From NCBI GenBank assembly GCA_017540175.1, contig JAFYBN010000043.1:1-33406 (forward strand): 33,406 nt of DNA, in the 5' to 3' direction. Source of the DNA: Clostridia bacterium (GTDB taxonomy: Bacteria > Bacillota > Clostridia > Oscillospirales > CAG-272). The first letter of the stretch is position 1, and each line of letters starts with the position of its first letter. Positions 3,656-33,178 of this stretch are shown in pieces. Under the pieces are notes generated by a model that was not told the origin of the DNA, did not search any database, and saw nothing but the letters and a program-made list of their open reading frames with translations. A program made the position numbers and the translations under genes.

Positions 3656-5389
3656 TCATTCCCCTTTGATTTCTTGGACGAGCGCCTCCGCGAGCAGCTC
3701 CGCGCTCAGAGACGCTTCTTCGATTGTATTTGCCGCCGCGCCGATCTCGATGAGCAGCGCGCCTGGGGCGTATTGCTCGTTGAACGACGCCGAGCGGAGG
3801 TTGATGTCCCGCGTCAGCCCCGGGCTCTCCGCTTCGAGGCTCCGCGCGAGCCGGAGGGCGAGCGCGAGGTTGTCCTCCCATCCCGGGTGGTCCGCTCCCG
3901 CCTCGTCCGTCCCGACGACGAACATGAGCCGCGCCGCGCGGCCCCCGCCGTCCAGCGCGCAGACCGGCGCGAAAGCCGACCCGTCCGGCAGGATGCAGGA
4001 GTCCCGGTGCAGATCGAATATGTAGCGTACGGTCGGGTATTCCGCGAGCGTTTCGCGGATCGCGCGTGCCGCTCTGTAATACGCGGTATTAAAATCCTCC
4101 GCGTCGAATGCCTCGGTCAGGTGGACCGTGCCGATCCCCGCGTCCCGCAGCCGCCGGGCAAGCAGGGAACCGATCCCCACCACGCTTTCCGCCTCATCGT
4201 TCGTGCGCCAGCCGTTCTGCTCCGTGTCCGCGTAGCCCTCCGTGCCGTGCGTGTGCAGGATCAGCACGACGGGCTCCTCCGACGCATCCGCATCGCCGGA
4301 TGCGTCTGGGCCGGGGAGCGCGAGGGGCGGGATGACCCTTTCCCGCGCGGCGAGCGCCGCGAGATCGAGCTCGTAGGCGGTCTCGTTCGAAAGACCGACC
4401 GGCGGAGAGAGGGAGAGGGAGTCCTCCGCCCGCTCCGCCCGCTGCGCCTGCTCCGTCAGCGTCTCCCGTTCCTCCCCCTGTTCTCCGTCCGTCTGCGTCC
4501 GCCCGGATGATTCGGACGGCTCTCCGGATCCCGTACCGTCCGCCGTTCCGACGGATTCCGCGGACTCTGCCGCCCCAGGGAGAGAGTCCGTCCCGGCATC
4601 GGGCTCCACGGAAGGCGTTTCGCCATGCCCCGCCTCCGGTTTTTCCGCCGCGTCAGCGCCGATCCGCTCCGCCGGGATCTCTCCCGCGAGTGGAGAGGAT
4701 GGGCCCCAAAACCCGAGCGGGAGGGAAGGAGCGGCGGGGAGTCCGCCGGTCCGCGGCAGGATCGGTTTCAGAACGGCGACGTTCTCATACCCGCCCGCGC
4801 ATTCCCCGACGAGAGCGCGGATGAGGTCCTCCCCGCCGAACTCCAGCCGCAGGAGAGCGTTCGCCGCGTAACACGAGAAGACAAAGGCGGTGAATCCCGA
4901 AAGAAACCACGCGGCGGCGCGCCGAAGCCGGGATAAGCGGTTTGTCCGCCTCCCGATCACGGACGCCGCACGGGCCCCCTTATCGGACGTCTCGCCGTCC
5001 CCCGCTCCCGACGGCTCCCCGGGCAGTTCCCCGAGCTCTCCGCTGTTCGATTCGCCGTTCGATCCGCCGTTCGATCCGCCGGGCAATCTGCCAGGCGCTC
5101 CGCCGGGCGATTCGCCGTCCGGTCCGCCGTTCGGCGGGGATTCGCCCGCTTTCCCCGCGTCGGAGCCTCTCGGGGACGGCGCGAGCCGGATGAGTGCGTC
5201 CGCTGCCTGTCCGGGCGCGGACGGGACGCCCGGCTCAGCCTCCGAAAACCCGCACCATACCGTCCCGTCCCGCGGCAAACCGACCGGGACCGGCTCTGCC
5301 GCCGTGCCGGGCAAGGCCGCGTTCCCGTTTCCTTCCGTCCGAACCGCCCCCGTTCCTTTCGTTTTTTCCGACCGACGCGGCCGGATCAC
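3656..5389 (-). CDS. spoIIP: Stage II sporulation protein P, peptidoglycan hydrolase, with long N-terminal extension
   Basis: SpoIIP is an amidase/endopeptidase that thins septal peptidoglycan with SpoIID and SpoIIM during engulfment. The C-terminal 210 residues carry the family signature LILHTHGTEGY (His379 and His381 expected zinc ligands), followed by the conserved GIGSLLARRL, FDLHRDS and FNEQYAPGALLIEIG blocks. One membrane segment lies at about 158-180, with the catalytic domain outside. With the GTG at 5389 the protein is 577 residues, longer than the usual 330-400. The excess is a Gly/Pro/Ser/Glu-rich low-complexity stretch before the membrane segment (about 75-140) and a second acidic linker after it (about 215-330). 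A GTG at 4960 would give a conventional N terminus but lacks a clear ribosome site, so the start is uncertain. It lies 36 bases after gpr, a conserved sporulation pair. Confidence 0.88.
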   Translation of the reverse strand: MIRPRRSEKTKGTGAVRTEGNGNAALPGTAAEPVPVGLPRDGTVWCGFSEAEPGVPSAPGQAADALIRLAPSPRGSDAGKAGESPPNGGPDGESPGGAPGRLPGGSNGGSNGESNSGELGELPGEPSGAGDGETSDKGARAASVIGRRTNRLSRLRRAAAWFLSGFTAFVFSCYAANALLRLEFGGEDLIRALVGECAGGYENVAVLKPILPRTGGLPAAPSLPLGFWGPSSPLAGEIPAERIGADAAEKPEAGHGETPSVEPDAGTDSLPGAAESAESVGTADGTGSGEPSESSGRTQTDGEQGEERETLTEQAQRAERAEDSLSLSPPVGLSNETAYELDLAALAARERVIPPLALPGPDASGDADASEEPVVLILHTHGTEGYADTEQNGWRTNDEAESVVGIGSLLARRLRDAGIGTVHLTEAFDAEDFNTAYYRAARAIRETLAEYPTVRYIFDLHRDSCILPDGSAFAPVCALDGGGRAARLMFVVGTDEAGADHPGWEDNLALALRLARSLEAESPGLTRDINLRSASFNEQYAPGALLIEIGAAANTIEEASLSAELLAEALVQEIKGE

Positions 5390-10861: not shown

Positions 10862-11707
10862 ATGCAGAAGAAAGATGACAGAAATCCCAGGGGTTTCCGG
10901 GATAGAACGCCCGCGGACAGATCGGGCGCCCGGCGCGCGGACGGCCCGGGACCGGGCGGTTTCCGGCGGGAAAAACCCTCGAACGTCGTGGTCGGGCGGA
11001 ATGCGGTCGCGGAGCTGATCCGGTCCGGCGCGCCGGTGGATAAGCTGCTCGTCTCCGGGCGGGAGGGCTCCATCGTCGCCATCGTCGCGGAGGCCAAAAA
11101 AGCGGGCATCCCCGTCGTGGACGCGACGACCGAGGCGCTTGACCGCGCTTCTTACGGCGAGCGGCATCAGGGCGTCGTCGCCATGACCGCGGAAAAGGCG
11201 TACAGTTCGATCGAGGATATCCTCGCCATCGCGCGCGAGCGGGACGAAAAGCCCCTGATCGTGGTCTGCGACGGGATCGAGGACCCTCATAACCTCGGAG
11301 CGGTCATCCGCTGCGCCGAGTGCGCGGGCGCGCACGGGATCGTCATTCCCGAACGCCGCGCGTGCGGACTCACGCCCGCCGTGACCAAGGCGTCGGCGGG
11401 GGCGCTGCTCCACATGGCGGTCGCCCGTGTGCCGAACATCGCGGGCGCGATCGAAACCCTGAATGACGCGGGCGTCTGGACCTTCGCGGCGGAAGCGGAC
11501 GGCGTGGATTTTTACGAAGCGGACTGGAACCTGCCCTGCGCCATTGTGCTTGGGGGCGAGGACAGCGGGGTCAGCCGCCTCGTGCGGGAACGGTGTGATT
11601 TCACCGTAAAGATCCCCATGTACGGCAAGCTCAATTCTCTGAACGTTTCAACGGCGGCCTCCGTTCTTCTGTGCCATGCGGCGCGGATGCAGCGGACCGG
11701 CGTATAA
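10862..11707 (+). CDS. rlmB: 23S rRNA (guanosine-2251-2'-O)-methyltransferase RlmB
   Basis: A SPOUT-class methyltransferase that uses S-adenosylmethionine to methylate the ribose of G2251 in the peptidyl-transferase region of 23S rRNA. The 281-residue protein has a basic, Arg/Gly-rich N-terminal 35 residues, a substrate-binding domain beginning VVVGRNAVAELI, and the three SpoU motifs: DGIEDPHNLGAVIRCAE with its conserved Asn and Arg, IVLGGEDSGVSR, and IPMYGKLNSLNVSTAASVLL, which form the knotted cofactor site. The related genes for TrmH-like methylases share these motifs, but the N-terminal domain and the nearby sigH favour RlmB. The ribosome site is weak (CGGA). Confidence 0.85.
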   Translation: MQKKDDRNPRGFRDRTPADRSGARRADGPGPGGFRREKPSNVVVGRNAVAELIRSGAPVDKLLVSGREGSIVAIVAEAKKAGIPVVDATTEALDRASYGERHQGVVAMTAEKAYSSIEDILAIARERDEKPLIVVCDGIEDPHNLGAVIRCAECAGAHGIVIPERRACGLTPAVTKASAGALLHMAVARVPNIAGAIETLNDAGVWTFAAEADGVDFYEADWNLPCAIVLGGEDSGVSRLVRERCDFTVKIPMYGKLNSLNVSTAASVLLCHAARMQRTGV

Positions 11708-11789: not shown

Positions 11790-14700
11790 ATGGCAAAGTA
11801 TAACAGGAAATCCGGTTTCTTCGGCGGGCGTTCGTCGGGGGAAAGGGAAAAACCGACGAGGGACAAGCGGGAAGAAGAACTCATCATGAAGAACGCGATA
11901 GACCTGACCTCCGGGGCGGGAAGCGATTCCGACAGCGAGCTCGATATCAACGCTCTCCTCCGCAAGTACATGCCGGAATATCAGGAGGACGGCAAGACGC
12001 CGTCCGGCGGATCGGGGACCGGTGCGTCATCCTCGGATGACGACAGTCTTCTCGCGCTCTTCCGCGATTCGTACGATTCCGAGGAGGAACCGCAGGATCA
12101 GTCGGAGGCGGAGCAGGCGGAGCAGGCGGAGCAGGCGGAGCAGGCGGAGCAGGCGGAGCAGCAGACGCCGGACGCTCCGGCCGAATTTACGGATCCTGCC
12201 GATGGCGCATATGAAGACGCCGATCTGTTTGGACCCGACGATGCAAGTCAGCCCGATGACGGGCAGGCGGCGGACTCCGGTTTCATGACGGAACCCGACG
12301 CCCCGGCTGCGGCCCCGGCTGCGGCCCCGGCTGCGGCTCCGGCTGCAGCCGAGACCGCGGCGGACGGCTTTGATCTTGAAAGCCTGTTTGCTGATGACGA
12401 ACAGCCCGACGACATGCCGCAGGAGGCGGCGGACGAAGAGCCGGTTTCCGCACAGGAACCCGACGCTCCGGCTCCGGACCCGGCTCCGACTTCGGGGGAC
12501 AACTCCGGGGAATTCTACGACGGCATGGCGGAGGAGCTCTTCCCGAGCGACCTGTTTGAGGACGACGGGGAAGACGTTCAGGCGGATGCCGAAGCGCCCG
12601 CGGAAGACGGCGCCCCGGCGGATTCCGGTTTTCTCTCCCGCATCCGTCAGTCGGTTCAGAACGACGACGATACATTGATTTCCGCGCTCGATTCCATGTT
12701 CGCCTCGGACGACGGGGCGAAACCGGAAGGCAGCGCGCCGAAGAAATACGGGGACGATCTCATCAGCGAATATGAGTTCTCCGATGAGAACGGCGAAGAG
12801 GGGCAGAATGACGACGCGCTTTCCGAAACCGCGTTCGACGAGCTGCTGAGCGCCGCGCGCGACGAAGCCGCCGCGGCTTATCCGGCAGCTCCGGCGCAGG
12901 AGCCCGGCGAGGAGATCCTTCCGGACGAGAACACGGACGCCCTCTTTGCCGAGGGCGACAGACCGAAGAAGAAGCGCTTCAGCCTCTTCCGCCGCAAGGA
13001 TAAACCCGCCGCGGCGGACATGAACCCGTATCCCGGGACGACGGCATACGAGCCGCAGAACCCGGCGGAGACCGACAGCGCGCAGCAGACCGCTCCCGCT
13101 CCCGCAGCCGGGACCGCGGCAAGCGCCTTCTCCAGTTGGGGCGAATCCATCCTCGGCCGCTTTGCCGAGGAGAACGTGATCGACGGAGCGGCAGTGCCGC
13201 AGGACTCCGACACGGAGCCGCTCGACGGCTTCCATGACGAAGCGTTCGCCGATGAAACATTCGAGGGCGGAACAATCACCGGTGAACCGATCACCGGCGA
13301 AACAATCGCGGGTGAACCGATCACCGGCGAAACAATCGCGGGCGAAACGATCGCGGGCGAAAGAATCAACGGCGAAACGGCTGCGGTCGAAGCACCGGCC
13401 GCCCAAGCGCCCATCGGTGAAACTCCCGAGATCGGAACAACCGCCGGATCGTTCGGCGACAATACCCAGCAGCCCGCTTTCCCCGTCGACAGCTCAGTTG
13501 ACGAAGCAAAGCCCGCGGAGGCCGCCGCGACCGAAGCTGCGGAAGAGCGGATCGCGGCACGGAAAAACCGTTCGGCAACCAATATGTCGGATGAGGAGCT
13601 GATGCGCTGGGCGGCGGAAACGCTGTCGGACAGCGGCTTCACCCCGTCCGCTCCCGCGCCCGCGGCGCAGACGAACGATGCCGTACCGGCGGCCGATCCG
13701 AACGCAGCCGATCCGTTCCTCGCCGCAGCCGACGCGCAAGCGCCCGCCGCAGTCAGCCAGACGTCTCAAACTCCCGCGTGGACGAACGGGCCTGCGCCGC
13801 AGACCCCCGCGTGGACGAACGGGCCTGCGCCTCAGACACCCGCAGGGGCGAACGGATCGGCGTCCCAGACGCCCGGCGAAGAGTTCGGTCAGACGTTCGG
13901 CCTCGGGCAGGAGTCCGACTCCGGACAGGAGTCCGGCAAAACGGGCTGGCAGACACCGGAAACACCCTACGAGGACGAAGAATTCGACCCGACCGACATC
14001 AATCTCATGGTGGCGTTCGGCCTTGATAACGACGACAGCCGCAAGTCCGACCGCGCGAAGGAGCTCGGCGACAAACTCGAAGCCAAGCAGCAGAACCGGA
14101 AAACCAACGTCAAGATCGACCGCGCGGAGTTTGTCGACAAGACCCAGATCCCCGGGATCCGCAAGGAATACCGCAATCGCTCCGTGTCGCTCTTCATCCG
14201 CCTGATCCTCTGCTTCGTGCTGGGAGCGATGCTGTTCCTCTTCGAGAACATCGAAACGGTGAGCAAGCTCATAACGGGCGAAAGCAAGCAGTTCGCGGAT
14301 TGGCTCGATCCCGAAAGGTTCCCGACGATCTACGCGATGGTCAGCCTCCAGCTCATGTTGCTCGCCTGCCTCTGCGCCTTCAATGAGATCTTCGCGGGCA
14401 TCAAGTCGATTTTCCGCGGCGCGCCCAAGCCGGAGAGCATGATGACGATCCTGATGCTCGGCGGCATCGTCTACTCCGCCGTCGTCGCTCATGTCCAGCC
14501 GGAAAAGCCCGTGATGTACAATTTCGTCGTCGCGTTCGCCGCGTTCATGACCCTGATTTACGCAGTCTACAACAACAAGCGCGAAATGATGAATTTCCGC
14601 ATCGTGTCGAGCAAGAAGACGAAGCACATCGTCCGCCGTCTCAAGGACGACGAGGCCGAAGGCGAAGCGAGAGCTTTCGCCGAGGAAACGGACGACGTCT

Positions 14701-15857
14701 GCGACGTCATGAAGATCGAAAAGACCGATTTCATCGACGGCTTCTTTGCCCGCCTGCAAAAGCCGGACCATACGACGAGCGCGTTCATGATGTTCGTCAT
14801 GGGGGCGACGGTGGTTCTTGCGGTCGTCTTCGGCATCCTCGCGAAAATGCGCGGAGCCGCGGGCATCGACGTGGCGAAGACCGCGTACGAATCCCTGCTG
14901 ATCCTCTCCCCGCTTTCGATTTTCATCACCTTCGCCTATCCCTTCTACCGCGCGAATCTGACCGCGCAGGAATACGACAGCGCCATCATCGGCGAGACCT
15001 CGCTGGACGAGTACTCCAACGCCTCGATCATCAGCTTTGACGACAAGAACGTCTTCCCGTCTTATTTCGTGAAGGTCCAGAACATCCGCATTTACAACAA
15101 CGCAAGGATCGACCGGGTCCTCTATTACGCCTCCTCCGTCTTCGCCTACGCGGGCGGACCGCTGCAGGACGTTTTCGAGGTCGCGACGAAGGATCTCGGC
15201 AATTCCAAGAACGTCAAGATCTACGACGCGGCGGACAATTATCTCGCAGCCCGTGTCGACGGCGTGAACATCTTCTTCGGAAGCTGCGACGCCCTGCGTG
15301 ACCGCGGCTTCAGCATTCCGGACAACGCCGCGGAAGACGACGTCGATCTATCCGACGAGCTTTCCATCATGTACATGTTCCGCGAGAACAAGCTCGTCGC
15401 GAAGATGTACATCAAATACGAAATGGATGCCGACATGGATCTCATCCTCAAGCAGTTCTCCGGCAACGGGCTGTACGCGTGTGTGCGGACCTTTGACCCG
15501 AACATCGACGAGGACATGATCGCGAAGAAGCTCAGCATCCGGAAAATGCCCTTGAAGATCGTCCGCTACGCCGACATGGATGAAGTCGAAACCTACGAGG
15601 CGAAGGTGGACGCGGGGCTTGTGACCTGCGGTTCGCAGAAATCGCTGCTTCAGGTGATTTCCTACTGCGCCAGAGTGCTGCGCACCAAGAAGACCCACAT
15701 CGCGCTGAGCGTACTCAGCGTGCTGATCGGCGCGGCGATCGTGACCCTGCTCCTTCTGGCGGGCAAGCTCACGGTCCTGACCTCGCTCATCATCGCCGCC
15801 TATCACCTCGCGTGGCTCATCCCGACGATGATCACCTCGCGCGTATTCGTGCGGTAA
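11790..15857 (+). CDS. Probable pseudo-P-type ATPase with long acidic repeat-rich N-terminal region
   Basis: A 1355-residue protein. Residues 1-797 are acidic, probably disordered, with short tandem repeats (AEQ, Ala/Pro, GETIA-type, QTPAWTNGPAP) broken by ordered bits such as KKKRFSLFRRKD. From residue 798 come six predicted membrane helices, a cytoplasmic domain of about 230 residues, and two more helices at the C terminus. This is the order of helices MA, MB, M1-M4, P domain, M5-M6 in P1B pumps. Before the cytoplasmic domain, LILSPLSIFITFAYP has the M4 proline, and DSAIIGETSLDEYSNASIISFDDKNVF lines up with the M4-to-P-domain link. Where the phosphorylation motif DKTGT should be there is DDKNV (Asp1084). 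The A domain is cut to about 70 residues and has no TGE, and no GDGxND is present. It should not pump ions. The ATG at 11790 has only a weak site; ATG at 11886 is an alternative. It is probably co-transcribed with rlmB. Confidence 0.7.
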   Translation: MAKYNRKSGFFGGRSSGEREKPTRDKREEELIMKNAIDLTSGAGSDSDSELDINALLRKYMPEYQEDGKTPSGGSGTGASSSDDDSLLALFRDSYDSEEEPQDQSEAEQAEQAEQAEQAEQAEQQTPDAPAEFTDPADGAYEDADLFGPDDASQPDDGQAADSGFMTEPDAPAAAPAAAPAAAPAAAETAADGFDLESLFADDEQPDDMPQEAADEEPVSAQEPDAPAPDPAPTSGDNSGEFYDGMAEELFPSDLFEDDGEDVQADAEAPAEDGAPADSGFLSRIRQSVQNDDDTLISALDSMFASDDGAKPEGSAPKKYGDDLISEYEFSDENGEEGQNDDALSETAFDELLSAARDEAAAAYPAAPAQEPGEEILPDENTDALFAEGDRPKKKRFSLFRRKDKPAAADMNPYPGTTAYEPQNPAETDSAQQTAPAPAAGTAASAFSSWGESILGRFAEENVIDGAAVPQDSDTEPLDGFHDEAFADETFEGGTITGEPITGETIAGEPITGETIAGETIAGERINGETAAVEAPAAQAPIGETPEIGTTAGSFGDNTQQPAFPVDSSVDEAKPAEAAATEAAEERIAARKNRSATNMSDEELMRWAAETLSDSGFTPSAPAPAAQTNDAVPAADPNAADPFLAAADAQAPAAVSQTSQTPAWTNGPAPQTPAWTNGPAPQTPAGANGSASQTPGEEFGQTFGLGQESDSGQESGKTGWQTPETPYEDEEFDPTDINLMVAFGLDNDDSRKSDRAKELGDKLEAKQQNRKTNVKIDRAEFVDKTQIPGIRKEYRNRSVSLFIRLILCFVLGAMLFLFENIETVSKLITGESKQFADWLDPERFPTIYAMVSLQLMLLACLCAFNEIFAGIKSIFRGAPKPESMMTILMLGGIVYSAVVAHVQPEKPVMYNFVVAFAAFMTLIYAVYNNKREMMNFRIVSSKKTKHIVRRLKDDEAEGEARAFAEETDDVCDVMKIEKTDFIDGFFARLQKPDHTTSAFMMFVMGATVVLAVVFGILAKMRGAAGIDVAKTAYESLLILSPLSIFITFAYPFYRANLTAQEYDSAIIGETSLDEYSNASIISFDDKNVFPSYFVKVQNIRIYNNARIDRVLYYASSVFAYAGGPLQDVFEVATKDLGNSKNVKIYDAADNYLAARVDGVNIFFGSCDALRDRGFSIPDNAAEDDVDLSDELSIMYMFRENKLVAKMYIKYEMDADMDLILKQFSGNGLYACVRTFDPNIDEDMIAKKLSIRKMPLKIVRYADMDEVETYEAKVDAGLVTCGSQKSLLQVISYCARVLRTKKTHIALSVLSVLIGAAIVTLLLLAGKLTVLTSLIIAAYHLAWLIPTMITSRVFVR
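12108..12165 (+). repeat. 9-bp tandem repeat encoding Ala-Glu-Gln
   Basis: About six copies of GCGGAGCAG in frame inside the pseudo-ATPase gene, giving an AEQ tract; copy number is likely to vary. Confidence 0.9.
12300..12352 (+). repeat. 12-bp tandem repeat encoding Ala/Pro tract
   Basis: Four near-identical copies of GCCCCGGCTGCG in frame, giving APAA units. Confidence 0.85.
13265..13380 (+). repeat. 15-bp tandem repeat encoding GE-T/P-I-A/T pentapeptides
   Basis: About seven degenerate copies of a 15-base unit in frame, encoding ITGEP, ITGET and IAGET variants. Confidence 0.85.
13770..13872 (+). repeat. 33-bp tandem repeat encoding QTPAWTNGPAP
   Basis: Three in-frame copies of an 11-residue unit; the first two are almost identical and the third has drifted. 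Confidence 0.85.
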
Positions 15858-16756: not shown

Positions 16757-19135
16757 ATGACGAAAGAGATTCGGGGACTAAGCGCCGAAGAAGTCGAAGA
16801 GCGGCGGCGGCAGGGACTCGACAACTGCGAAATCAATCCGCCCACCAAAACGGTGGGAGATATTCTGAAATCCAATATTCTGACCTATTTCAACGGGATT
16901 TTCCTCCTGCTCGCCATCGGCGTGATCATCGCGGGGCAGTTCAAAAACCTGACCTTCATGATCATCGTGATGGCGAACACGGCGATCGGCATCGTGCAGG
17001 AGCTGAAATCCAAGAGAGAGCTCGACAAGCTGACCCTGCTCACCGGCAGAAAATGCACGGTCATCCGCGGCGGGCGGGAGAAGAGCGTCGACGTGCACGA
17101 TACGGTCCGGGACGACATCGTGATTTTTGAGTCCGGCGCGCAGATTTTCGCGGACGCGGTCGTCGTCGACGGTTCGGTCATCGTCAATGAGGCGCTGATC
17201 ACCGGCGAAGCGGACGAGATCAAAAAATCGGTCGGGGACGAGCTGATTTCCGGCTCGTTCGTCATGACCGGAAACTGCGCCGCGCGTCTCACGGCGGTCG
17301 GCGAAGCGAGCTTTGCCTCGAAGCTGACGATCGAGGCGAAAAAATCGGGCAAGCAGAGGAAGAGCGAAATGATGCGCTCTCTGACACGCCTGGTCAAGGT
17401 GATCGGCATCCTGCTGATCCCGCTGGGCATCCTCTCGCTTGTAAAGGAAATCAAATGGCTCGGGCATGATTACCGGGAGGGCATCATCAAGACGGTCGCC
17501 TCCCTGCTCGGCATGATCCCCGAAGGTCTCTATCTCCTGACCAGCCTCGCGCTCGTCGCCTCCGTAGTCCGTCTGATGCGGCAGAGGACCCTTGTGCATG
17601 AAATGGACTGCATCGAGACGCTCGCCCGCGTGGATACGCTCTGCGTGGACAAAACGGGGACGATCACCGAGAACAAAATGACGGTCGAAAAGGTCGTTCT
17701 CCTCGCCGAGGACCGGTCGGTGCCCGAAATCTCGCAGATCATGTCGGACTACGTCTTCGCGCATCAGGCGGACAACGCCACCATGCTCGCGCTGAAGGAT
17801 TATTTCAAAGGCGCGTCCTACCGCACCGCGCAGTTCATTTTGCCTTTTGTTTCCTCCCGGAAATACGGAGGCACGATGTTCGAAAACGGCACCTTCCTGC
17901 TCGGCGGACCGGACGTGATCCTCGGGGACCGCTACGATATGATCGCGCCCGTCGTTGAGGAGTATTCGGCGAAGGGCTGCCGCGTCCTGCTTCTCGCGCA
18001 GACGGACGTCGATCTGCACTATTCCCCCTCGCCTGGCGAAGCGGAGCCGGTCGCGCTCATCCTGCTCGCCAACAAGATCCGCGACACCGCGCCGGACACC
18101 TTCCGGTTTTTCGCGGAGAACAACGTTCAGGTGAAGGTCATTTCCGGCGACAACGCGCAGGCGGTGTCGGAGGTCGCGAGACGGGCGGGCATCGAAGGCA
18201 GCGAGCTGTACGTGGACGCGCGCACGCTTGAGAACGACGAACAGATCGCGAGAGCCGCGCAGCAGTACAATGTGTTCGGCCGCGTGACGCCGGAGCAGAA
18301 ACGCAAGCTCATCCGCGCGCTTCGCGCCGCCGGGCATACGGTGGCGATGACGGGCGACGGCGTAAATGACGTGCTCGCCCTGAAGGAAGCGGACTGCTCC
18401 GTGGCGATGGCGTCCGGCGCGGAAATCACGGCGCAGGTCTCGAACATCGTCCTCCTCGATTCCGATTTTTCCGCCATGCCGAGCGTCGTTTCGGAAGGAC
18501 GCCGGGTCATCAACAACATCGAGCGCTCCGCCGCGCTTTATCTCTGGAAAAACATCTTCTCCTTCGTGCTGACGCTCGTCACGCTGCTGTTCACGCTGAC
18601 CTATCCGCTCGAGCCGGTCCAGCTGACACTGATCTCCGCTCTGATGATCGGCGCTCCGTCCTTCGTGCTCGCGATGGAACCGAACAAGAGTCTGGTGCGC
18701 GGGCACTTCATGAAGAACGTGCTGAACCGGGCTCTGCCCGCCGCGCTGACGAATTTCCTCATGATCCTCGGCGTTCTCATGTTCGACAGGGCGTTTGAGA
18801 TCTCGGAGAATCCCGCCATGAAGGGGCAGGTCTCCACGGTCTGCACGCTGATCATGGCGCTCGTCGGCATGCTCATGCTGATTTCCACGTCGATCCCATT
18901 CAACAAGCTGCGTGCCGCGCTCTGCGCCGCCATGGCGCTGGGCACCGTCATCGGCGTGCTCGCGATGAGCGGCTTCTTCAGCCTCGTTCCGCTGGAATTC
19001 AAGACCAAGCTGATTTTTGGCGTGTTCGCGATCATGTCCGTCCCCACGTTCATCGGCATCAAAATGCTCACGGAACGAGCAGGTGATTGGCTGACCGTGC
19101 TTCGGAGGAAGTTTGAAGCCGCGAGAGACGCGTGA
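16757..19135 (+). CDS. Cation-translocating P-type ATPase, CtpE-like
   Basis: A 792-residue ion pump of the inner membrane with all catalytic signatures. The A domain has TGEADE (Thr149-Glu151, a TGES variant), M4 has MIPEGLYLLTS (Pro255-Glu256-Gly257-Leu258), the phosphorylation site is DKTGTITENKM (Asp298), and the hinge is GDGVNDVLALKEADCSVAM (Asp534, Asn537, Asp538). Two helices lie before the A domain, two between it and the P domain, and six at the C terminus, as in P2-type pumps. PEGL with the short N domain resembles the CtpE group, in which a mycobacterial member takes up calcium; a cation such as Ca2+ is the best guess. The ATG has GGAGG six bases upstream. The GNAT gene follows ten bases after the stop. 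Confidence 0.88.
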   Translation: MTKEIRGLSAEEVEERRRQGLDNCEINPPTKTVGDILKSNILTYFNGIFLLLAIGVIIAGQFKNLTFMIIVMANTAIGIVQELKSKRELDKLTLLTGRKCTVIRGGREKSVDVHDTVRDDIVIFESGAQIFADAVVVDGSVIVNEALITGEADEIKKSVGDELISGSFVMTGNCAARLTAVGEASFASKLTIEAKKSGKQRKSEMMRSLTRLVKVIGILLIPLGILSLVKEIKWLGHDYREGIIKTVASLLGMIPEGLYLLTSLALVASVVRLMRQRTLVHEMDCIETLARVDTLCVDKTGTITENKMTVEKVVLLAEDRSVPEISQIMSDYVFAHQADNATMLALKDYFKGASYRTAQFILPFVSSRKYGGTMFENGTFLLGGPDVILGDRYDMIAPVVEEYSAKGCRVLLLAQTDVDLHYSPSPGEAEPVALILLANKIRDTAPDTFRFFAENNVQVKVISGDNAQAVSEVARRAGIEGSELYVDARTLENDEQIARAAQQYNVFGRVTPEQKRKLIRALRAAGHTVAMTGDGVNDVLALKEADCSVAMASGAEITAQVSNIVLLDSDFSAMPSVVSEGRRVINNIERSAALYLWKNIFSFVLTLVTLLFTLTYPLEPVQLTLISALMIGAPSFVLAMEPNKSLVRGHFMKNVLNRALPAALTNFLMILGVLMFDRAFEISENPAMKGQVSTVCTLIMALVGMLMLISTSIPFNKLRAALCAAMALGTVIGVLAMSGFFSLVPLEFKTKLIFGVFAIMSVPTFIGIKMLTERAGDWLTVLRRKFEAARDA

Positions 19136-29821: not shown

Positions 29822-32800
29822 ATGAAGAAGAACCTCTGGAAAAGGATGATTGCTTTGCTGCTTGCGGCGTCCTTGCTGAGCGGCTGCGTCGCGAGGAGGC
29901 GTTCCTCGAGAGCGTACCGAAACCGGGATTATTCGGCGGAGGAGCTGGAGGTTATGAAAGAGTCGCGGCAGGATCTTGATCGCGACGGACTGGAGGATTA
30001 CGACGAGGTCAATCTGCTCAACTATAATCCGAATTCAAAAGACAGCGACCGTGACGGTGTGCCCGATGCCGACGAGGATTATGACGGCGACGGGCTGACG
30101 AACCGCTCGGAGGCGGAGCTTGGAACGAGTCTTGTGCTGCCGGATACGGATTCCGACGGGTTGAACGATTTCGAAGAGGCGACGGTTTACCGTACCGATC
30201 CTCTTCTCACAGATACCGACGAAGACGGGGCGGGCGACTTTGAAGAAATCATGATCGGGACGGATCCTCTGGTTCCCGAAACGCGGTTTGTCACCGCGGC
30301 GACTGCGGGAAGCGTCGACGCGCTCACGCCCGTCGTCGCGTCCGCGACCGCCGTCACAAGCGGTGAAGGCGCCAATACGCTCCAAATCCGCGAACTGACC
30401 ACGCTGGATAATGCCCTTTTGAATACGACGATTCCCGGATATCTCGGGTCCGCCTATGACTTCAGCGTCGGGGGAGATTTCATATCCGGGGAGCTGACGT
30501 TCACGTATGATCCCTCGCTCGGCACGGTGGGAGACGGATTTGAGCCGAGGATCTACTATTTCGACGAGGAAACCGGTCTGCTGGAAGAATTGCCCGATCA
30601 GATCGTCGAAAACGGATCGGTCAAGGCGGCGGTCAGCCACTTCTCGACCTATATCCTCTTGAACAAGGTGGAATTCGACCGGGTGTGGGAAGAAGAGCTT
30701 ACCCCTTTCATGACGTCGGAAAAGAACGGTATCCCGACGGTTTTACAGATCGCGTTCGTCATCGATTATTCCCTCAGTATGGTCGAAAACGACCCGGATC
30801 AGACGTTCAAGGAGCTGACAAAGAGCTTTATCGCCCGTCTCCGCGACGGAACGGATGAGGCGGCGGTGATCGAATTTATCGCTGTCGCGACGCTGCTGTC
30901 CGATCTGACCACGAATAAGGACGCGCTGATCAGAACGGTGGAGTCGATCGAATACGACAATGGTCACGGGAAGAATTCGGGGACAAACGGATCCGATGGG
31001 ATCCGAGCGGCGCTCGAGGTCCTGACGAATCGGAACCAGACCGAAAAAAGCGGCGCGAATACGGTCAAATACATCATCTTCATGACCGACGGTCAGGATA
31101 CGAAGCAGAGCTACTCCTACGATCTGCTCGCCAAAAAAGCGGCTTATTCGAATATCCGCATCTATACGATCGGGCTCGGCTCCGCGGAGGACGCGGTGCT
31201 CCGCTCGGTTGCCGAAAAAACCGGCGGCAAATACTATTACGCGACGACGGCGGAAGAGCTTCCCGTAATTTATGAAAACATATCGGAGGAAGTCGCCGAC
31301 ACGACGACGGATTCGAACGGGGACGGGATTTCCGACTATTATGCCGATTTGATCAACAAGGGTAAGTTGACGTATTCTTCCGGCGCGACGAATCTGGTCG
31401 GCGTCCTCGATATCTACGGGGAGGAATCCGTCGACTGGGACGGCGACGGGCTCCTGAACGGCGAAGAGATCGAAATCGGTACCGAAACGCCGAAGCCCCA
31501 TATCGTTCTTTATTCAAATCCCCTCTTGAAGGATTCGGACGGGGACGGGTACGATGACTTCACGGAAATTCAGAACAATACCAATCCTCTCAAATGGACG
31601 ATGGACGGGGATTTCTCACTCACGCAACTGGAAGATGACAAACGCTACAATTATGTCAGCTTCGCTTCTGAGAACGGCGGAGACCTTTTGCCGATGGTGT
31701 ATTGGAAGAGCACCGAGGAGGCCAAACAGTATCTGATCAATTACTTTTTCGATTATGCTCCCCAGGAGATGATCGACAAAAACGCGGAATCCATTGCGAA
31801 ACTGAAAGCGCGGGAGCAGTATCAAAAATGGTTTGAAGCCGCGGTGAATCTGGTGAAAGCCATCAAAGACATCAAGGAGATATACGACAGTTGTTCGGAT
31901 ATGCTGTCGGGCGACAAGCTGTCGTCCTCTCAGAAGACATATGTCCGTAATCTCAGCGAACGCATGAAGAACGGCACGTCCAAAGTCTATGTTTTCGCCG
32001 ACAGCGAAGAAAAGCTGCAGGGGATCATGAAGAATATCACGGTCGCGATCAACAACGAGAAGTTCGATCCGCAGAATAATGTATCTGTCACGGCGGATAT
32101 TCTTGATATATTAGATGGTGTGAAAGATGTCTACAGCGATTGTCGGGAGATGCTCGACAGCGAGGAAGTGCCCGTCGATCCTCAGAATCCCTCCGGACAG
32201 ACCGCTTCTCAGGACTGGGCCGAAAATGCGCAGAAACTGACCTCCGTCATTCAAAAGCTCACGGGCATAACTTCGTCGGGGACGTCCCTCTTTTCAACCG
32301 TCCGTTCCGGCGTTACCATAATGAAGCTGTCGAAAACATTCCACGGCGCCGCGGCTTTCTCGAAGGATTATCAGAAATTTATTCAGGCGAAAGGCTTCCA
32401 GCCGACGGCGATGACCTACATAGGGATCGCGATCGATGTGGCCGACTGCGCCAACTCAATTTGGGAGGCTTCCAACACATACGGCAAAATGCAGGCAAAC
32501 CGCGACGCGTATCTGGCGTACATCGACCTCCTCGCATACATCGCGGATCATTCGGAGTACGAGTATATCCAAAATGCGTCGTTCAACCTCAAGAAGATCA
32601 TTATGGATGAATCCTGGGAGGAGTATGAAAGACAACTGCTGCTGTATGACGGCGCGCTCATCCTGGAAACCGGATTGGACATCGCTTTTACACTCGCGGC
32701 GAAAGCGAATCCGTATGTCGCGTTGGCGAAGCTGTGCGTTGAGGTGGTCAAAGCGGGAAGCAGCTTCGTCGGAATCGGAGAATATTTGACGGGAGTTATC

Positions 32801-33178
32801 GATGCATGTGCGATGCAGGCGGTTTCGAGCGGCTGTATCGCAATCATCAAGGGGTGCGTCTACAGAGAGGAGCTCAGCTATATCAGCATTCAAGCCAACG
32901 ATGCGGCATATGTCCGGTCTTATATTGTGCAGCTGGCGCAAAGCCGGATCGTCGGTGAGAAGGTAATCTATGAACTCGCGAAGGATCCCGCGCTCATGAT
33001 GCAGGTCGATCCGTTTTTCAGCAAAGACCTTGCGCGGCAGGACTTCGTGAATACGTTCAACAGCTTCTGCCAGTCCGTTTTCATGACTGCCTTATCGATT
33101 GACAGCATGCACGGAGGCTTGCAGCTGTCGTCCAATTGTCCCGGAGTAATTATCCCGCGGGCGGCATCGGTCAGCTGA
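29822..33178 (+). CDS. Large lipoprotein with TSP3 calcium repeats and VWA domain
   Basis: A 1118-residue surface protein. The signal peptide ends in LLSGC (Cys22), so it is lipid-anchored outside. Residues 50-155 hold several thrombospondin type-3 repeats (DLDRDGLEDYDE, DSDRDGVPDADEDYDGDGL, DTDSDGLNDFEE, DTDEDGAGDFEE) that bind calcium. Residues about 308-490 are a von Willebrand A domain with a full MIDAS: DYSLS (Asp315, Ser317, Ser319) and MTDGQD (Asp423). A second TSP3 group follows (DSNGDGISD, DWDGDGLLNGEE, DSDGDGYDDFTE; about 495-590). The remaining 520 residues are mostly helical, with a few hydrophobic stretches, and match no family I know. It probably binds a ligand or matrix through the VWA domain. 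AAGGAG precedes the ATG by seven bases. The gene stands alone; an insertion element starts about 100 bases after its stop. Confidence 0.85.
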   Translation: MKKNLWKRMIALLLAASLLSGCVARRRSSRAYRNRDYSAEELEVMKESRQDLDRDGLEDYDEVNLLNYNPNSKDSDRDGVPDADEDYDGDGLTNRSEAELGTSLVLPDTDSDGLNDFEEATVYRTDPLLTDTDEDGAGDFEEIMIGTDPLVPETRFVTAATAGSVDALTPVVASATAVTSGEGANTLQIRELTTLDNALLNTTIPGYLGSAYDFSVGGDFISGELTFTYDPSLGTVGDGFEPRIYYFDEETGLLEELPDQIVENGSVKAAVSHFSTYILLNKVEFDRVWEEELTPFMTSEKNGIPTVLQIAFVIDYSLSMVENDPDQTFKELTKSFIARLRDGTDEAAVIEFIAVATLLSDLTTNKDALIRTVESIEYDNGHGKNSGTNGSDGIRAALEVLTNRNQTEKSGANTVKYIIFMTDGQDTKQSYSYDLLAKKAAYSNIRIYTIGLGSAEDAVLRSVAEKTGGKYYYATTAEELPVIYENISEEVADTTTDSNGDGISDYYADLINKGKLTYSSGATNLVGVLDIYGEESVDWDGDGLLNGEEIEIGTETPKPHIVLYSNPLLKDSDGDGYDDFTEIQNNTNPLKWTMDGDFSLTQLEDDKRYNYVSFASENGGDLLPMVYWKSTEEAKQYLINYFFDYAPQEMIDKNAESIAKLKAREQYQKWFEAAVNLVKAIKDIKEIYDSCSDMLSGDKLSSSQKTYVRNLSERMKNGTSKVYVFADSEEKLQGIMKNITVAINNEKFDPQNNVSVTADILDILDGVKDVYSDCREMLDSEEVPVDPQNPSGQTASQDWAENAQKLTSVIQKLTGITSSGTSLFSTVRSGVTIMKLSKTFHGAAAFSKDYQKFIQAKGFQPTAMTYIGIAIDVADCANSIWEASNTYGKMQANRDAYLAYIDLLAYIADHSEYEYIQNASFNLKKIIMDESWEEYERQLLLYDGALILETGLDIAFTLAAKANPYVALAKLCVEVVKAGSSFVGIGEYLTGVIDACAMQAVSSGCIAIIKGCVYREELSYISIQANDAAYVRSYIVQLAQSRIVGEKVIYELAKDPALMMQVDPFFSKDLARQDFVNTFNSFCQSVFMTALSIDSMHGGLQLSSNCPGVIIPRAASVS

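Follow-up and report, generated by a model that had tools for sequence, protein, structure and literature searches.

P-type ATPases are usually seen as among the most motif-constrained of the pump superfamilies; their helices are labelled MA, MB and M1-M6, CPC and HP are marks of the P1B pumps, and PEGL is a mark of other pumps. The PEGL motif also appears in PMC10654040. The human protein TMEM94/ERMA is described in PMC12134183 as a ten-helix protein that lacks TGES, holds no nucleotide at the site proposed for phosphorylation and shows no ATPase activity, with SPCA as its nearest relative; PMC13322241 terms it a true Mg2+ ATPase, and its P-type status is disputed. Here we describe a gene in a 33,406-nucleotide stretch of DNA from a Clostridia bacterium (assembly GCA_017540175.1, contig JAFYBN010000043.1; this whole stretch is called the window below), which encodes a protein that we call the pseudo-pump. 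On balance, we favour reading it as a P1B pump descendant that is conserved but catalytically dead, and that serves in the membrane as a regulator or scaffold without pumping, with a link to rlmB and perhaps to 50S maturation.

The pseudo-pump shares with P1B ATPases such as CopA (LpCopA, PDB 3rfu) a homologous core, eight hydrophobic segments, the M4 proline and the order of the P and N domains; it differs from them in the lack of DKTGT, GDGxND, CPC and HP, in a short A domain, and, in most members, in a long acidic tail. With TMEM94/ERMA it has in common a P-type-like architecture, a likeness taken from the published description rather than from sequence, while TMEM94/ERMA is eukaryotic and has ten helices against the eight of the pseudo-pump. 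Among the papers listed by literature queries on inactive or DKTGT-less P-type ATPases, pseudoenzymes, TMEM94, and rlmB together with a Firmicutes membrane protein, none deals with such a bacterial family, as judged by titles and the beginnings of abstracts, with subscription papers mostly outside the scope. The gene and its parts, all on the + strand, are as follows.

11790..15857, +: pseudo-P1B-ATPase gene, 1355 amino acids (reading of the open reading frame (ORF), homology, motif survey)
11790..14180, +: acidic low-complexity cytoplasmic tail with short tandem arrays, residues 1-797 (repeat and charge analysis)
14202..14555, +: hydrophobic segments 1-4, residues 805-823, 847-866, 883-901 and 906-922 (averaged hydropathy)
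14790..14927, +: hydrophobic segments 5 and 6, residues 1001-1023 and 1029-1046, with the M4-type P1041 in PLS, not CPC (hydropathy, motif survey)
15039..15053, +: DDKNV at the place of DKTGT, residues 1084-1088 (profile alignments, motif survey)
15153..15164, +: GGPL at the N-domain HP place, residues 1122-1125 (profile alignments, motif survey)
15489..15509, +: TFDPNID at the TGD place, residues 1234-1240 (profile alignment, motif survey)
15699..15854, +: C-terminal hydrophobic stretch, residues 1304-1355, taken as two helices (hydropathy)

Descent from the P1B pumps becomes visible when the family is compared as a profile. A profile built from 60 homologue cores matches LpCopA with an E value of 3.2e-19, and hhalign aligns the family profile with 17 intact P1B pumps over 525 columns (probability 99.8, E 1.7e-29); a second, closer profile-profile alignment to P1B pumps gives E 2.8e-22. 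The search against P-type ATPase models that the sequence-only reading had proposed as a check finds TIGR01525 (heavy-metal P-type ATPase) in the window core alone at E 1.8e-4 and 18-20 bits, under a cut-off of 346 bits; the same model matches 42 of the 60 homologues at E ≤1 (best 2.1e-11), with all scores shown far below the cut-off. Pfam gives no match to the window's pseudo-pump, and its E1-E2_ATPase model is weakly matched by three of the 60 homologue cores (best E 0.0033). In a tree that also takes in the 17 P1B pumps and the second pump encoded in the window, 32 pseudo-pumps form a single group on one side of a branch with 100/100 support, with long branches, which sets them apart from the P1B ATPases. 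We regard it as firm, on the strength of these profile comparisons, that the pseudo-pump is a P1B-type ATPase by descent, homologous over nearly the whole pump core.

Averaged over 134 non-redundant homologues (90 per cent identity clusters out of 188 sequences, the set on which the motif survey also rests), hydropathy shows six hydrophobic segments in residues 805-1046; the last 52 residues form one hydrophobic stretch that we interpret as two helices, which gives eight in total and, by hydropathy alone, the eight-helix order of P1B pumps. The cytoplasmic head sits between the six segments and the C-terminal stretch. The M4 proline, P1041, is kept in 123 of the 134, flanked mostly by L, A, M or T before it and by L, V, A, F or M after it, and the CPC cysteines are lost. 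The pump topology read from the single sequence, with six helices, an M4 proline and two last helices, is borne out at the level of hydropathy.

The catalytic motifs, on the other hand, are gone. Neither DKTGT nor GDGxND occurs in any of the 134 homologues; the latter had been noted as missing from the window's protein, and the former, had it turned up in relatives, was named beforehand as a finding that would refute the idea. Three profile alignments put D1084 on the phosphorylated aspartate of P1B pumps, in agreement with the earlier view that DDKNV stands in place of DKTGT; this column is Asp in 82 homologues and holds other residues in 52, while D1085, at the place of the lysine of DKTGT, is Asp in 124. 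The TGD place has become T-x-D-P-N-I, with D1236 in 133 of the 134, and the HP place has become GGPL, with G1122 in 119, G1123 in 112, P1124 in 111 and L1125 in 118; Y1210 (130 of 134) and G1164 (131 of 134) are near-invariant as well. The A domain is short, as was first proposed: helices 4 and 5 are 78 residues apart, and the window's protein has no TGE at the position aligned with that of the pumps. A TGES string is found at its residue 829, in the stretch from helix 1 to helix 2, and TGE occurs somewhere in 21 of the 134 cores, a count made without comparing its position from member to member. The columns of the P strand are the least variable of nine regions (mean entropy 2.09 bits, vs 2.41-2.77 in the other eight), the helix regions lie at 2.43-2.77 bits, and conservation thus peaks in the cytoplasmic head. 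By these alignments, the old active site is remodelled rather than merely lost, with new residues fixed in its place.

The gene is under selection to keep its core. The ratio of nonsynonymous to synonymous substitution rates (dN/dS) in the core was 0.026-0.093 in all 14 pairs computed, which were drawn from 82 pairs passing an identity filter, while in the tail it was 0.07-0.37 in the 13 of these 14 pairs where it could be computed. A decaying pseudogene is ruled out by the core values together with the near-universal presence of the gene described below. As a homologue of an enzyme family that lacks the catalytic motifs and is maintained by selection, the protein is, judged from the substitution rates, a conserved pseudoenzyme and not a gene in decay. 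The suggestion that it is a non-pumping P1B-type descendant is supported, with firm homology and DKTGT in no member.

All 59 genomes sampled from the window's family carry a homologue. In the sample of its order, the family profile at E 1e-15 matched 140 of 147 genomes, from which three were removed (G118 and G185, where only the part shared with intact pumps matched, and G090, where the place of the match was not shown), so that a homologue is placed in 137; a single query at E 1e-3 matched 135 of the 147, some through intact pumps. Among 196 genomes of the class, 43 matched at 1e-20: seven belong to the order itself and match over the full length or nearly so, while in the other 36 the matches cover only about columns 195-478, and the 23 loci retrieved from these all encode DKTGT pumps. 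Only three of 299 genomes of the phylum passed 1e-25, all from the order, and full-length matches outside the order were absent among the sampled class and phylum genomes. One genome (G011) has two homologues; the named relatives are bins of uncultured Clostridia, Oscillospiraceae and 'Ruminococcus', and Candidatus Avispirillum. A match to Spo0A is absent in 14 genomes of the order, and 12 of these 14 retain the pseudo-pump, which rules out a gene used in sporulation only. By its distribution in these samples, the pseudo-pump is a core gene across one Clostridia order.

The constant companion of the gene is the one directly upstream.

10862..11707, +: rlmB, SpoU/TrmH-type 23S rRNA 2'-O-methyltransferase (PF00588 E 1.4e-42, PF08032 E 3.9e-13)

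Its product matches both domains of the RlmB (SpoU/TrmH) family and is unrelated to the pseudo-pump; we take the pair PF00588 and PF08032 to denote RlmB, and presume its methylation target likewise. In the window the rlmB stop codon lies 82 base pairs (bp) upstream of the ATG of the pseudo-pump. Directly upstream and on the same strand, rlmB was found in 116 of 121 loci, the other five having less than 190 bp of contig upstream; these loci are not independent, since genomes of L006-L075 recur in L179-L218 and part of the L099-L178 set comes from the same organisms. In the order sample both genes could be placed in 135 of 147 genomes and are adjacent in 128, and six of the seven non-adjacent cases are breaks at contig ends. 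The sole real relocation is in G059 (L252:2502-4781), where the pseudo-pump comes right after an Obg-like ORF and behind L21-like and L27-like ORFs, in what looks like an L21-L27-Obg operon, names that we assume from reading the ORFs only, and where rlmB lies on another contig with different neighbours. Either gene was found alone in four genomes, all near contig edges (rlmB in G062 and G084, the pseudo-pump in G146 and G167); in G084 the beginning of the tail is visible after rlmB. Seven genomes of the order have neither gene, among them G118 and G185 (one genus), G144 and G157, four well-assembled genomes that are at least 95 per cent complete.

The pair holds across about 25 families, while the next commonest neighbour group was found in 10 of 38 loci, and downstream genes vary. 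This grouping covers 38 of 41 sources, the gene of the remaining three (L199, L200 and L211) having been missed by crude gene calling and recovered in the adjacency count. Outside the order rlmB is itself common (all 50 good-quality genomes in the class sample have it, including two members of the order), and other genes follow it there: no pseudo-pump-like ORF stands after rlmB in the 26 of 28 loci that were readable, although flanks of 1.5 kilobases (kb) miss a core that lies behind a long tail, as the window's own locus (L219) demonstrates, so that the class and phylum profile searches are the stronger control outside the order. Long frames in G182, G131, G147, G122 and G064 that looked like fusions with rlmB are separate genes or accidental frames. 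In the window's family (L218, L202, L217, L204), the one to four genes upstream of rlmB often include a sigma-factor-like gene and one for a small protein that has two CxxC pairs. The labels SigH, DUF2344, radical SAM, NYN and ACT were likewise given to ORFs by reading only, and are our assumption.

The window's tail (residues 1-797) has 174 D/E vs 53 K/R, a net charge of -121, so that of the "acidic repeats" first proposed the acidity stands; repeats are confined to short tandem arrays (nucleotides 12106-12161, 12300-12361, 13254-13378 and 13773-13875), and the remainder is Ala/Pro-rich acidic low complexity. Tail statistics cover the 120 of 134 homologues whose tail is not truncated and reaches 90 residues or more (eight truncated sequences, and six shorter ones owing to the choice of start, were excluded); here the median length is 319 and the longest 878, and acidic residues outnumber basic ones in 117. 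A short N-terminal amphipathic pattern occurs in 44 of the 120 tails (200 shuffles: mean 2.25, maximum 7) and a stricter one in 28 (0.2 in shuffles), an enrichment that is descriptive, both patterns having been devised after inspection of the tails. The window's tail has no match to the stricter amphipathic pattern and carries ELDINALLRKYMPEY near residue 52. A strict tail-motif pattern was found in none of 628 ORFs of neighbouring genes, a weak test given that this pattern is present in just five of the 120 tails.

Of the six sequences excluded as short, only L186 and L197 are truly tail-less; they belong to family f10, whose whole proteins are about 553 residues long and lack an acidic tail. 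The core match begins 72-182 bp past rlmB in seven of nine f10 genomes, and in the other two it begins within the core, with open frames of 541 and 553 amino acids. There is no room for a tail in f10, which argues that the core, not the tail, bears the conserved role, and that the tail is not needed for it.

Taken on motif content, the pseudo-pump almost certainly forms no phospho-enzyme and does not pump. We suggest that it is probably a membrane-bound sensor or scaffold, in which the remodelled head of the dead pump would bind a ligand or partner at the membrane, while the acidic cytoplasmic tail may recruit a partner in most families and would be dispensable for the conserved role. The near-strict adjacency to rlmB points to an undescribed non-transport job. 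Among functional ideas a link to 50S maturation comes first, given that rlmB is so regularly next door, that both genes are missing together in some genomes and that the one relocation leads to a ribosomal operon; we tentatively propose a job tied to RlmB or to maturation of the 50S subunit, and not to the transport of metals. We also speculate, as a doubtful extension, that in this order a heavy-metal pump was converted into a partner for the maturation of the large subunit that is anchored in the membrane, and that its ligand-sensing head, with the acidic tail where present, might hold or gate RlmB and late precursors of the 50S subunit there.

Several observations weigh against this picture. 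The best PDB match of the single window sequence has an E value of 0.42, and the homology is visible only with the family profile. The catalytic aspartate is kept in the window and in the majority of homologues counted above, so that some residual chemistry is conceivable. The tail is missing in family f10. A comparison of 32 RlmB sequences from inside the order with 28 from outside yields one order-specific column and no hint of physical contact, and the notion of a special RlmB in the order was dropped for this reason. The adjacency can reflect a shared promoter, and the joint absence can be one deletion or an assembly gap.

The strongest rival is shared transcription only, in which the pseudo-pump would use the rlmB promoter for a task in the envelope or in signalling that has nothing to do with the ribosome; we consider it somewhat unlikely. 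The near lack of order-specific residues in RlmB, the short intergenic gaps, which fit an operon, and the other neighbours of rlmB in the 26 loci outside the order speak for it; against it, other neighbours are not kept while the pair is, across all those families, and both genes are jointly missing in seven genomes.

The second rival holds that the pseudo-pump senses for intact cation pumps, or pairs with and tunes them, and it starts from the window itself, where an intact pump follows two genes past the pseudo-pump, with a 5-formyltetrahydrofolate cyclo-ligase gene in between.

16766-19135, +: intact P-type pump, M4 with PEGL, DKTGT present; second gene after the pseudo-pump

Four intact P-type ATPases with DKTGT are encoded in the window's genome. 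In favour of this rival, the pseudo-pump retains the M4 proline and pump topology, and in one other locus (L133) the gene lies near a pump that shares about 50 per cent identity with that of the window. However, a DKTGT ORF is present in the available flanks of only three of 121 loci, L133 included, with at least 3.3 kb downstream covered in 100 of the 121; M4 has no metal cysteines, the neighbouring pump is of the PEGL type, and the constant partner is rlmB. The window's intact pump gives no profile match to the pseudo-pump, a weak test with just two distinct sequences on the pump side. Regulation of the downstream pump, as the sequence-only reading had it, was thus rejected as unlikely, and we give little credence to cation-pump tuning in general. 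Transport that persists by a phosphorylation-free route, as a channel or carrier, is very improbable: the eight hydrophobic segments persist, as does the M4 proline, but the transport cysteines are lost and conservation is highest in the P strand of the cytoplasmic head rather than in the helix regions.

A second P-type ATPase without motifs, unrelated to the pseudo-pump, is encoded in the same genome outside the window (L005:1150-3582, that is G000:C68:24584-27016). It matches PF00122 and, within its first 300 residues, models of the Mg2+/Ca2+ type (TIGR01524 at E 1.8e-30, far under the cut-off); DKTG, GDGxND and TGE are all absent from this protein, and at E 1e-60 it matches one of the 147 genomes of the order, its own. 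Two further genes of the window were annotated.

3656-5389, -: SpoIIP gene (PF07454 E 1.3e-49)
29822-33178, +: gene for a 1118-residue protein with a VWA domain and a bacterial TSP3 repeat (domain search)

A near-universal gene of one order that derives from a pump and belongs to no Pfam family above noise suggests that the P-type scaffold can be kept for non-transport use. Its near-strict link to rlmB offers a concrete place to look for what that use may be, namely in crosstalk between the membrane and rRNA maturation.

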